From positions 1 to 54,793 of the forward strand of contig JABDIY010000120.1 in assembly GCA_013003535.1 (NCBI GenBank): a DNA stretch of 54,793 nt, given 5' to 3'. The stretch comes from Acidimicrobiales bacterium (GTDB taxonomy: Bacteria > Actinomycetota > Acidimicrobiia > Acidimicrobiales > SZUA-35). Position numbers and translations under genes: made by a program. This document shows positions 10,138 through 13,382 of this stretch, one piece after another; position 1 is the first letter of the stretch; each line of letters starts with the position of its first letter. The notes below the pieces were generated by a model. That model did not search any database. It worked only from the letters and a program-made list of their open reading frames with translations, and had not been told where the DNA came from.

Positions 10138-12096
10138 GTGACCGCAGCCAACGAACTGTCCGAGCTCCTTTGGACGCCAACGCCGGGACGGGTAGAGCGG
10201 TCTCACATGGATCGCTTCCGGCGGGCCGTGAAGCCTGAGCTGGCTGACAGTGATGAGTTGTGGAAGTGGTCAGTGGACAACCCTGGTGAGTTCTGGCGAG
10301 CTGTCTGGAACTACTGCGGCGTCATCGGTGACCCGGGCGAGCGTGACCTTGAGTCGGCCAACGAATTCTGGAAGTGGCGGTTCCTGCCAGACGCCAAACT
10401 CAACATGGCTGAGAATCTTCTTGCAGGACGGGCCGGTGCAGGGCCAAATGCCATCGTCGCAATCGCCGAGGACGGTTCAACCGACATTTGGTCCTGGGGT
10501 CGACTCCGCTCCGAGACCGCCGCCGCCGCAAATTGGTTGCGTTCTGTTGGTGTAGAAAAGGGCGATTGTGTAGCGGCATGGATGCCACACCTACCGGAAA
10601 CAGTGGTGCTGTTCTTGGCTGTCGCGTCCATCGGCGCCGTTTACACCACTACGTCGGCCGATTTCGGAGTCGATGGTGTTGTGGACCGTTTCGGTCAGAC
10701 TGCACCCAAAGTGTTGCTGGCCGCTGATGGTTACACCTACGGCGGGAAGCCGTTCGGATTGGGCCAGCGGGCCGCGGATATTGCCACCGCCCTGCCATCG
10801 GTTGAGCACGTGCTCGTTGTGGAGGGACCATCAGGCTCCGGGACCGCCGTCGGCGAGACCAATGCGGCCGTGCATCGGTGGGACGATGCAGTTGGGGCGC
10901 TCCGAGGCGCCGAACTCACCTTCGAGCAGCTTCCAACTGATCATCCGATGTACATCCTCTACTCCTCCGGTACCACCGGCAAACCGAAGTGCATCGTCCA
11001 CCGCACCGGTGGGGTCTTGCTCAAGCATCTGAGCGAACAACAGCTGCATTGCGACGTTCATGCCGGCGACAAAGTCTTCTACTTCACGACGTGTGGCTGG
11101 ATGATGTGGAACTGGCTTGTGAGCGGACTGGCAACGGGTGCCACCATCGTGCTGTATGACGGAAATCCCGTCTACCCCTCGCAAACGCGACTATTCGAAG
11201 AAGCAGAGAACCACAGTTTCAGCCTCATGGGGGTGTCAGCGAAATTCATCGACGGCTCGCTGAAGGCCGGGTTGACTCCGGGCCAGTCCTTCGATCTCGC
11301 TTCGGTCCGAACAATCTGCTCCACTGGCTCCCCTTTGAGCAACGATGGATTCGGTTGGGTCTATGACGCTGTTGCACAAGATGTCCATCTTGCTTCAGTC
11401 AGTGGCGGAACGGATCTGTGTGGCTGTCTGGTTGGCTGCGACCCCACGAAGCCGGTGGTAGTGGGCGAACTACAGGGCAAGTGTGTCGGCATGAATATCA
11501 ATATCTTCGATCCCGACGGCCGGCCGATCACCGACCTTCACACGAAAGGTGAATTGGTATGCACCACACCATTCCCGTCGATGCCTTTACATTTCTGGGA
11601 CGACCCCGGCGATGTCCGCTATCGAGCCGCGTACTTCGACCGGTTTCCCGATACGTGGGCGCACGGCGACTTTGCCAGCTGGGAAGCTGGCGGTGGCATC
11701 GTGATCCATGGCCGGTCCGATGCCACGCTGAACGCGTCGGGCGTTCGTATCGGTACTGCGGAGATCTACAACGTGGTGGAGCAGCTCCCGGAGGTCGCCG
11801 AGGCCATCGCCATCGGCCAGCAATGGGACAATGACACCCGAGTTGTCCTTTTCGTTCGGCTTGCTGAGGGTGCTGTGCTCGACGACCTTCTGGAGCGAAA
11901 GATTCGCACAGAACTCCGCACCAAACGCACGCCCCGTCATGTGCCGGCCATTATTCGGGCGGTGCCCGACATTCCCCGCACCCGGTCGGGCAAGATCACC
12001 GAGCTGGCGGTTACCGACGTCGTTCATGGTCGGCCCATCAACAATACCGAAGCCCTCGCCAACCCCGAATCGCTCAAACACTTCACCCTCGACTAA
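10138..12096 (+). CDS. Acetoacetate--CoA ligase (acetoacetyl-CoA synthetase)
   Basis: Member of the acyl-adenylate-forming superfamily, 652 residues as usual for acetoacetyl-CoA synthetases. It activates acetoacetate to acetoacetyl-CoA with ATP. The P-loop-like motif YSSGTTGKPKCIVHRTGG lies near residues 278-295, and the C-terminal TRSGKITE carries the conserved adenylation lysine (Lys619). The N-terminal region WTPTPGRVERSHMDRFRR is characteristic of this subfamily rather than acetyl-CoA synthetase. The GTG start is preceded by GGAAGGA. It lies 23 bases after the DeoR gene and could be co-transcribed, though no functional link is evident. Confidence 0.92.
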   Translation: MTAANELSELLWTPTPGRVERSHMDRFRRAVKPELADSDELWKWSVDNPGEFWRAVWNYCGVIGDPGERDLESANEFWKWRFLPDAKLNMAENLLAGRAGAGPNAIVAIAEDGSTDIWSWGRLRSETAAAANWLRSVGVEKGDCVAAWMPHLPETVVLFLAVASIGAVYTTTSADFGVDGVVDRFGQTAPKVLLAADGYTYGGKPFGLGQRAADIATALPSVEHVLVVEGPSGSGTAVGETNAAVHRWDDAVGALRGAELTFEQLPTDHPMYILYSSGTTGKPKCIVHRTGGVLLKHLSEQQLHCDVHAGDKVFYFTTCGWMMWNWLVSGLATGATIVLYDGNPVYPSQTRLFEEAENHSFSLMGVSAKFIDGSLKAGLTPGQSFDLASVRTICSTGSPLSNDGFGWVYDAVAQDVHLASVSGGTDLCGCLVGCDPTKPVVVGELQGKCVGMNINIFDPDGRPITDLHTKGELVCTTPFPSMPLHFWDDPGDVRYRAAYFDRFPDTWAHGDFASWEAGGGIVIHGRSDATLNASGVRIGTAEIYNVVEQLPEVAEAIAIGQQWDNDTRVVLFVRLAEGAVLDDLLERKIRTELRTKRTPRHVPAIIRAVPDIPRTRSGKITELAVTDVVHGRPINNTEALANPESLKHFTLD

Positions 12097-12106
12097 ACCT
12101 TCGCTG

Positions 12107-12182
12107 AAATTCCTGTTGATAGCTACACTAATTGTGGTTGTCAACAGGGATTTCACCTGATTGTGGTCACCAACAGGAATTT
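12107..12182 (+). repeat. Left terminal inverted repeat (76 bp)
   Basis: It begins AAATTCCTGTTGA and has the near-complementary TCAACAGGGATTT inside (12141-12153), then a 5-base spacer CACCT and another forward half-unit GATTGTGGTCACCAACAGG. It starts 10 bases after the acetoacetyl-CoA synthetase stop codon. Confidence 0.65.
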
Positions 12183-12443
12183 GAGCGGGTTTACATCCTA
12201 GGAAGGCAGATCGAGGGTGATCGACGCCGACAGCGAGCCAGCGGACTAGCCGGCAACCGATGCTTCGCCGATGTTGCTCCGCTGGATGTCCTCAACTGCC
12301 TAGTAGCTCGTCAGGGAAACGTTGGGCCTTTGCCTCGCCTTGACGCAGCTGTTCAGGCTGCGATTGAGTCGAATGCCGTCGCCGAAGAGTTGAGTCCTGC
12401 ACTCGAGGAGTGCGAGTACCCCGACGGCTCCTGAGCGCCATCC

Positions 12444-12519
12444 AAATACCTGTGTAGGACCACATTCGGGTCAAATCCCTGTCAGTAGCAACGACAATTG
12501 TGGCTGAGAACAGGAATTT
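12444..12519 (-). repeat. Right terminal inverted repeat (76 bp)
   Basis: It has the same length and half-unit order as the reverse complement of the left copy, and ends in ACAGGAATTT. It ends 39 bases before the homoserine kinase start, so the kinase promoter lies just outside the element. Confidence 0.65.
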
Positions 12520-12543
12520 GGGGAGGGCGCAAGATTGGAACTC

Positions 12544-12557: not shown

Positions 12558-13382
12558 GTGACTGTCGTTCGAGCCCCTGCATCTTCGGCCAACCTGGGAC
12601 CGGGGTTTGATGTGCTTGGCCTGGCCCTGGACCGGTACGCGTACGCCAGCGACGAGGGCGACGGCGGCGGCTCCGCCGACCATTGCTGGGATAATCACAT
12701 CGCTCGCGTCGCCTACGAACTTGCCGGCGGCAAGGGTGATGTCTGGTTTCGCTTCGAGTTCCCACCAGCCCGGGGAATGGGCTTCTCCGCAGCTGCTCGC
12801 GCCGCCGGGGCCGGTCTGGCCTTTGCCCAGCAAGGAGCCGAAACCGAAGAGCTTCAAGACGAGACCTACCGGATCGTTTCCGAGCTGGAGGGTCACGCCG
12901 ACAACGCCGCGCCCGCCGTATTTGGCGGGATCCACGTCGTAACGTCCGAAGGTTGCCACCGCCTGGCGGCCCAGCTTCCCGGCGAACTTCTCATCTGGGT
13001 TCCCCACGAGGCGTCAACCTCCACCGATGAGAATCGCGCCACGCTCACCCCGACGGTTGCCCGGGAGGACGCAGTATTCAATCTGGGCCGATTGGGACTT
13101 CTGCTAGCAGCGCTGTATGAGCAGAACATCGACCTTCTCCATCAGGCCACTGGTGACCGCCTGCATCAGGCCGGCCGTTTCGCGTTGCAGCCTCTCTCGG
13201 CTGAGGCGTATGAGGCAGCGATTGGCGCCGGAGCGGCTGCCGCATGGTTGAGCGGTTCAGGGCCGTCGGTTGGCATCGTGGCGCACCCCGGTCGGGCGCA
13301 CGTAATCGAAACGGCGCTTCCCAAAGATGGCGACCTGCTTTACGTTGCCACCGACCTTGCGGGCACCATCGAGGTCTTGTAG
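12558..13382 (+). CDS. thrB: Homoserine kinase
   Basis: GHMP-family kinase of 274 residues that phosphorylates L-homoserine in threonine synthesis. VRAPASSANLGPGFDVLGLA is the N-terminal ThrB/GHMP signature. PPARGMGFSAAARAAGAG (about 73-90) is the glycine/serine-rich ATP loop, normally PxxxGLGSSAA. LSGSGPS near 230 is the third GHMP motif. The GTG at 12558 is chosen because the protein then begins with the family N-terminus and TAGGAT lies 8 bases upstream. It stands alone here, without hom or thrC. ThrB is somewhat shorter than the usual 300 residues. Confidence 0.85.
   Translation: MTVVRAPASSANLGPGFDVLGLALDRYAYASDEGDGGGSADHCWDNHIARVAYELAGGKGDVWFRFEFPPARGMGFSAAARAAGAGLAFAQQGAETEELQDETYRIVSELEGHADNAAPAVFGGIHVVTSEGCHRLAAQLPGELLIWVPHEASTSTDENRATLTPTVAREDAVFNLGRLGLLLAALYEQNIDLLHQATGDRLHQAGRFALQPLSAEAYEAAIGAGAAAAWLSGSGPSVGIVAHPGRAHVIETALPKDGDLLYVATDLAGTIEVL

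Follow-up and report, generated by a model that had tools for sequence, protein, structure and literature searches.

Opposed 77-bp palindromic blocks behind gene ends in uncultured Acidimicrobiales, best read as a new family of REP-like repeats

The acetoacetyl-CoA synthetase–thrB locus

The window is the whole stretch of 54,793 nucleotides analysed here, contig C84 of an Acidimicrobiales genome designated G000 (3.99 Mb in 221 contigs, 95.8% complete). A 413-bp stretch at 12107-12519 lies between two genes of the same strand and is composed of two opposed blocks and a core; the features of the locus are listed below.

10138-12096, plus strand: acetoacetyl-CoA synthetase gene, upstream neighbour, with a TAA stop codon at 12094-12096
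12097-12106, plus strand: AACC and pyrimidine-rich leader from the stop codon to block 1, frequent in the family
12107-12182, plus strand: block 1, a left-handed copy of the 77-bp family (covariance model, 79.5 bits)
12107-12115: outer tag AAATTCCTG of block 1
12107-12129, minus strand: block 1 unit 1 (unit pattern and weight matrix)
12131-12153, plus strand: block 1 unit 2 (unit pattern and weight matrix)
12160-12182, plus strand: block 1 unit 3 (unit pattern and weight matrix)
12183-12443, no strand assigned: single-copy core of 261 bp containing an open frame with its stop at 12434
12444-12519, minus strand: block 2, same family in the opposite orientation (covariance model, 67.3 bits)
12444-12466, minus strand: block 2 unit 3 (unit pattern and weight matrix)
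12473-12495, minus strand: block 2 unit 2, degenerate (weight matrix)
12497-12519, plus strand: block 2 unit 1 (unit pattern and weight matrix)
12511-12519: outer tag of block 2
12520-12530, no strand assigned: purine-rich tract outside block 2, mirroring the pyrimidine leader
12558-13382, plus strand: thrB-like homoserine kinase gene, downstream neighbour, its start placed by eye from the comparison with the related genome G003

The initial annotation described the two arms as imperfect 76-bp inverted repeats, and this was reproduced: 12107-12182 and 12444-12519 are identical at 54 of 76 positions in inverted, ungapped alignment, a repeat search returns the same pair, and lengthening each arm by one base (12107-12183 and 12443-12519) gives 55 of 77. 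Across 200 dinucleotide-shuffled versions of the 801 bp around the locus, the best inverted 76-mer match without gaps reached a mean of 39.5 identities and a maximum of 45. The common inner order of half-units and spacer proposed for the arms is likewise present in both; 24-bp direct units start at 12131, 12160 and 12497 and minus-strand units at 12107, 12444 and 12473, and a weight-matrix map resolves each arm, from its outer end, into a minus unit, a plus unit, a gap and a second plus unit, each unit being 23 nt long. For block 1, a 21-bp stem closed by a 5-nt loop is predicted from units 1 and 2. The open frame of the core ends 9 bp short of the second arm; the core gave no match in a Pfam search and no second copy when searched against G000.

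A dispersed family of 77-bp blocks

The arms belong to a repeat dispersed through the genome, a family beyond what the initial annotation could see. A search of G000 with the 434-bp region returned many more copies of the arms, the best of the others at E = 3e-15 to 1e-8, and the unit pattern matches 54 times in this genome against none for the reversed pattern used as a control. Weight-matrix mapping places nearly all units of G000 in blocks of 76-77 bp with a fixed geometry (an outer minus unit, a 31-bp middle containing the second unit, and an outer plus unit); about 27 full blocks are present, both window arms included. Each opens with the outer tag AAATTCCTG and has three palindromic units, with 4-5 nt separating the first two and about 7 nt the second from the third. 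Thirty-one canonically oriented blocks from three species align readily in the order AAATTCCTG, stem, ACA, about 5 nt, TGT, stem, GGNAGAANG or GGAATTT, about 7 nt, TGT, stem and end; the tag is identical in all 31.

Through covariance-model searches, with matches confirmed on fetched loci, the family was followed into related genomes. Match rows number 55 in G000, where they comprise the roughly 27 full loci, reverse-strand echoes and a few partial loci, 76 in G001, 15 in G002, 1 in G004 and 9 in G012; full blocks amount to several tens in G001, about 13 in G002, one in G004 and about eight in G012. G001 and G002 are species of the same genus as G000, and G012 belongs to another genus of the family. 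By the same model G003 contains no block, and neither do 35 further relatives. In a genome contig collection the block pattern matches only the sister record CALHFG01; a viral origin was discarded, as the pattern has no match in viral contigs. No Rfam model matches a block at E up to 1, and GTAG and CGTC tags are not the constant part; the initial view that the element is of no recognised named family is upheld.

Several variant arrangements were observed. At L053:3946-4050 a 105-bp array resembling a palindrome is built from four units (minus, minus, plus, plus), which make two 77-bp blocks that overlap on opposite strands. G001 carries a second subfamily (L196, L219, L220, L223, L225) with the tag AAATTTCTG and TGCTGGCCACTACA-like stems, a form nearer to the copies of G012. 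On contig C1 of G074, a genome of the same taxonomic order, seven same-strand TGTRGGGAATTTCAGGAATTT-like motifs occur (L102, L107-L109, L111, L112, L114); they are probably a repeat unrelated to the 77-bp blocks.

Stem sequences and folding

The constant part of the blocks is AAATTYCTG together with ACA-N5-TGT; the stems vary by genome yet stay complementary. The stem is GATAGCCACA/TGTGGCTATC in G000, GGGGACTACA in most copies of G001, CGAAAATGACA/TGTCGTTTTCG or GGGAACACA/TGTGTTCCC in G002, and AGGTGACA/TGTCACCT in most copies of G012. Units accordingly start with TGTGG in G000, TGTAG in most G001 copies, TGTGT, TGTCG or TGTGG in G002, and TGTCA in most G012 copies.

The pairing of unit 1 with units 2 and 3 far exceeds that in slid controls, and folding z scores average about -4 to -5 for both strands in the block-rich genomes other than G002, in which the mean is about -3. 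When pairing was scored row by row in G000, G001 and G012, a copy's own arm paired no better than the arm of another copy, so no constraint on single copies to keep a hairpin is visible. A strand-specific RNA hairpin was considered on the basis of G-T versus A-C mismatches and set aside; G-T exceeds A-C in most shifted controls too. From these two comparisons, selection for a hairpin is evident neither for a strand nor for a copy.

Position at gene ends and stop codons

The inspected blocks lie between genes or run a few bases into the end of one, and they are strongly polar. Of 81 cases, 63 have the tagged outer end turned towards the 3' end of a gene (P = 3e-7 relative to the inner side, which is random), usually 4-30 bp past the stop codon; the other 18 face a 5' end, and several sit directly behind the 3' ends of tRNAs. 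An AACCC motif precedes the tag in 39 of 82 blocks and is found at 13 of 273 gene ends (P = 2e-18).

TAA is the stop codon of 39 of 57 genes followed by a block and of 58 of 273 controls (P = 1e-11). Where an orthologue has no block, its stop is mostly TGA or TAG. The gene at L198 has TGA in G003 and G000 and TAG in G004 where the block is missing; the gene at L189 has TGA in G000 and TAG in G003; both flanks of an AbiEi-like locus have TGA in G003; and the acetoacetyl-CoA synthetase gene, TAA in the window, has TAG in its block-free orthologues in G001, G002 and G003. Exceptions, with TAA although no block was found, are a thiolase in G001 and rplL in G002. Judged by the TAA excess and the stops of block-free orthologues, the final bases of the stop codon tend to come with the element; GTAG repeats are likewise tied to TAG stops (PMC3733652). 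At rplL the block sits between the stop codon and an intrinsic-terminator-like sequence, which argues against the block as the rplL terminator.

Empty sites in related species

Joined flanks were used as queries for empty sites, and the loci were then fetched. G000, G003 and G004 lack the block that G001 has at L198; G001 and G004 lack the L056 block of G000; and of the G001 pair at L189, whose blocks stand about 3 kb apart, nothing is present in G000 or G003. Empty sites in sister species can thus be read at base level. At the window locus G003 has about 90 bp from acetoacetyl-CoA synthetase to thrB and the repeat is absent. Since the arms recur elsewhere and this site is empty in a relative, neither of the outcomes named beforehand as speaking against a mobile repeat (arms confined to one place, and the same 413 bp conserved in all relatives) was found. 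In G001 (L127) and G002 (L128) the same intergenic site is occupied by two genes, by eye for a signal-peptidase-like and a secreted protein, on some 3 kb of unrelated inserted DNA, which is also absent in G003.

Neighbour genes of the blocks are common to the species at few loci only. One of these is the AbiEi-like locus, where G003 has 14 bp between aligned convergent genes, and G000, G001 and G002 have a block, a gene and a second block at the same convergent site; the AbiEi_4-like gene between the opposed blocks lies at L065:5985-7212 in G000, L152:1668-2450 in G001 and L153:1584-2839 in G002. Its orientation in G000 is opposite to that in G001 and G002 with the same flanks, which would reflect either inversion between the blocks or independent insertion. 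The flanks are only about 70-74% identical, and the block sequences follow the species, not the locus; a simple old insertion is therefore insufficient, and gene conversion, renewed insertion or selection would be needed. No target-site duplication was seen at block flanks or empty sites, where sequence divergence limits the test, and no event of excision was identified.

Opposed pairs and their contents

Of the 12 close opposed pairs, G001 has six, G002 one and G000 five, those of G000 spanning 413, 733, 1014, 1228 and 1908 bp; the tags are outermost in all 12 (P = 5e-4). Neighbouring blocks less than 4 kb apart occur six times in G000 against 0.7 expected (P = 1e-4); single blocks are commoner than pairs. 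The content between paired blocks is varied: the short frame without a Pfam match in the window, an uncharacterised 148-aa protein, a DUF899 protein, an aldo/keto reductase with a tRNA-editing domain, metabolic genes in G001, and the AbiEi_4-like protein (24.5 bits, just below the 25-bit cut-off). The L098 pair of G001, whose two blocks are 96% identical, encloses a tRNA-Thr that is native in G003 without either block; this pair is thus read as two separate local insertions, and the notion that every pair is a cassette is contradicted. Separately, a PIN-type toxin and a small antitoxin-like partner (by eye) lie between two same-facing blocks at L060:4744-5375.

Y1 transposase genes

A Y1 (RAYT-type) transposase gene is present once each in G000, G001 and G002 and twice in G012; none was found in G003 or G004. 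All four block-rich genomes carry such a gene as compared with 6 of 37 others (Fisher P about 0.002, computed by hand), and this co-occurrence initially favoured the RAYT as mobiliser. The inverted repeats that bound the Y1 genes of G000, G001, G002 and G012 (beginning GGGACAGGC, GGTGACGGGTC, GGGTCAAGTCTC and GGGGACAGGCC) are, however, unrelated to the blocks; by genome they are AGGGACAGGC in G000 and G001, GGTGACGGGTC/GACCCGTCACC in G002, and GGGTCAAGTCTC and GGGGACAGGCC in G012. The covariance model finds no block in the Y1 flanks, and no transposase was found between or beside the blocks inspected. A Y1 gene with its own inverted repeats is the layout of TIRYT genes (PMC3733652), and the GGGGWSAS motif of TIRYT repeats described there fits one Y1 repeat of G012. 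A Y1-type transposase gene, which the initial annotation proposed to look for, is present in every block-rich genome; since these genes are bounded by repeats of their own, the link between repeat and transposase is not supported. The single Y1 genes at L096:1230-2183 (G000, contig C209) and L235 (G001), each with its own AGGGACAGGC repeat, apparently occupy the same place in both species, behind a VWA-domain-like gene.

Origin of the blocks and of the pairs

The arms are best explained as two facing copies of a REP-like palindromic repeat, some 77 bp long plus a short AACCC/pyrimidine leader, that is dispersed, non-autonomous and spread by insertion; the probability of this reading is put at about 0.78. 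Copies would insert at the 3' ends of genes and tRNAs with the tagged end towards the gene end, and in many cases would contribute the two final bases of a TAA stop codon. Close opposed pairs such as 12107-12519 may arise when a second copy inserts near the first, and at some loci extra genes may be acquired too. A transposase or recombinase supplied in trans would most likely recognise the units, probably in the form of a single-stranded hairpin. The family with its copy number, palindromic structure and polarity, and the lineage-specific empty sites, are directly observed; transposition, the hairpin intermediate, the acting enzyme and the way pairs arise are inferred.

It is doubtful, though a reasonable alternative, that the 413 bp moved as one piece, as a MITE or gene cassette bringing cargo between 77-bp terminal inverted repeats; comparable pieces would then be those with the AbiEi-like gene, the DUF899 gene, the aldo/keto reductase and tRNA-editing genes or a 3-kb islet. 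The outermost tags in all 12 close opposed pairs and the over-representation of close neighbours speak for it, as do the absence of the whole block-cargo-block arrangement at the AbiEi-like locus (G003), L189 (G000, G003) and the window locus (G003), cargo stop codons that in several cases fall 7-9 bp short of the second block's inner side, and the inverted AbiEi-like gene in G000; against it stand the native tRNA-Thr of L098, the excess of single blocks, cargo types with nothing in common, and window arms that are no more alike (0.71) than random family members (mean 0.72). Given the varied contents and the native tRNA-Thr, pairs may or may not be true units, and the window fits both readings; of the initial description as a non-autonomous element or mosaic REP pair, the mobile REP-like repeat is retained, and movement of the 413 bp as one terminal-inverted-repeat element is unproven, each arm being a complete 77-bp element. 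A more elaborate and rather improbable reading makes the block a site for structure-guided recombination or transposition in an as yet undescribed inverted-cassette system, in which opposed blocks bracket gene islets behind host genes and allow them to flip or be exchanged, with a species-specific enzyme reading the stems around the fixed AAATTYCTG tag. Mobilisation of the blocks as REPs by the genome's own RAYT is unlikely: Y1 co-occurrence, a layout, stop-codon overlap and 3'-end preference like those of REPs (PMC3733652), and units starting TGTGG in G000 and TGTAG in most G001 copies are in its favour, but the Y1 genes have the TIRYT layout with other inverted repeats and no blocks nearby, and the unit-start tag is not conserved, being TGTCA in most G012 copies.

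Two further readings would have the host retain the blocks for a function. It is improbable that they are 3'-end elements (terminators, mRNA stabilisers or translation-stalling hairpins) under selection at particular genes; the strong polarity, the short distance from stops, the copies directly behind tRNAs, the stable folds and the report that REPs within 15 nt of a stop lower translation (PMC12306157) are consistent with such a role, but orthologues in sister species do without blocks, a U tract is absent, 18 of 81 blocks point to a 5' end, and stem pairing is not preserved in single copies. The terminator form of this idea is contradicted by the empty orthologues together with the terminator-like sequence past the block at rplL. 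Least probable is that the blocks are clusters of nucleoid or regulon sites bound by a host protein whose specificity drifts by species; the fixed three-site geometry and the species-wide change of all units would suit this, but the blocks have no common neighbour genes, differ in presence between sister species, and lie behind genes, not at promoters. A toxin-antitoxin operator or other regulon site was rejected as no neighbour family recurs.

Relation to known repeat families

The preferred reading, insertion of a REP-like repeat, places the blocks closest to the REP, BIME and REPIN repeats of the GTAG and CGTC super-families (PMC3733652, PMC3116915). Both are intergenic and palindromic with opposed units in tens of copies or more, lie mostly near gene 3' ends where they can supply the stop codon, and differ between relatives with species-specific sequence types; the blocks also consist of short repeated extragenic palindromic units, often in inverted doublets. 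They differ in that the constant part is AAATTYCTG and ACA-N5-TGT, not GTAG or CGTC, in their three-unit plan of fixed polarity, and in that no RAYT gene is bordered by a block. In the block alignments neither a GTAG (or GTGG) tag conserved at the hairpin foot of each unit nor a CGTC tag at one end was found, and the Y1 flanks carry no block; lacking the tag and a repeat-bordered RAYT gene, the blocks fall outside the RAYT-REP group.

Terminal inverted repeats of TIRYT genes (PMC3733652) are comparable as families unrelated to the GTAG and CGTC REPs in genomes with a Y1 transposase, but here the repeats of the Y1 gene differ in sequence from the block family. Bacterial MITEs such as Correia/NEMIS and RUP (PMC2229807) are likewise under 200 bp, non-coding and dispersed with inverted terminal repeats; the blocks, however, lack TA ends and a visible target-site duplication, show polar insertion at gene ends, and have differing outer and inner ends in G001 and G002, inverted ends being present in G000. 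The blocks also invite comparison with two systems of other kinds. Mycobacterial interspersed repetitive units (MIRUs) are oriented intergenic repeats of about 77-101 bp that overlap stop codons, resembling the blocks in size and position; they carry a small open frame and are not known to be palindromic, whereas the blocks are palindromic. The attC sites of integron cassettes are structured imperfect palindromes of about 60-140 bp just behind stops, with genome-specific types as in the blocks, and are characterised by RYYYAAC ... GTTRRRY core motifs, direct arrays and IntI. An attC identity was rejected; the core motifs were not found by eye in the block alignments, and block pairs are opposed, not direct arrays.

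Significance

The blocks are best regarded as a new family of REP-like (REPIN/BIME-like) intergenic repeats of an uncultured Acidimicrobiales genus and one neighbouring genus, a poorly studied host lineage. Because the constant part is neither of the described tags and the Y1 genes have other ends, the family offers a test of how REP-like repeats disperse where no RAYT is flanked by them. Judging from the differing stop codons, host genes, among them that for acetoacetyl-CoA synthetase, seem to have had their ends altered by small mobile DNA; the change of stems from species to species at fixed positions, together with empty and filled sites at base level, makes the family a ready substrate for enzyme tests.
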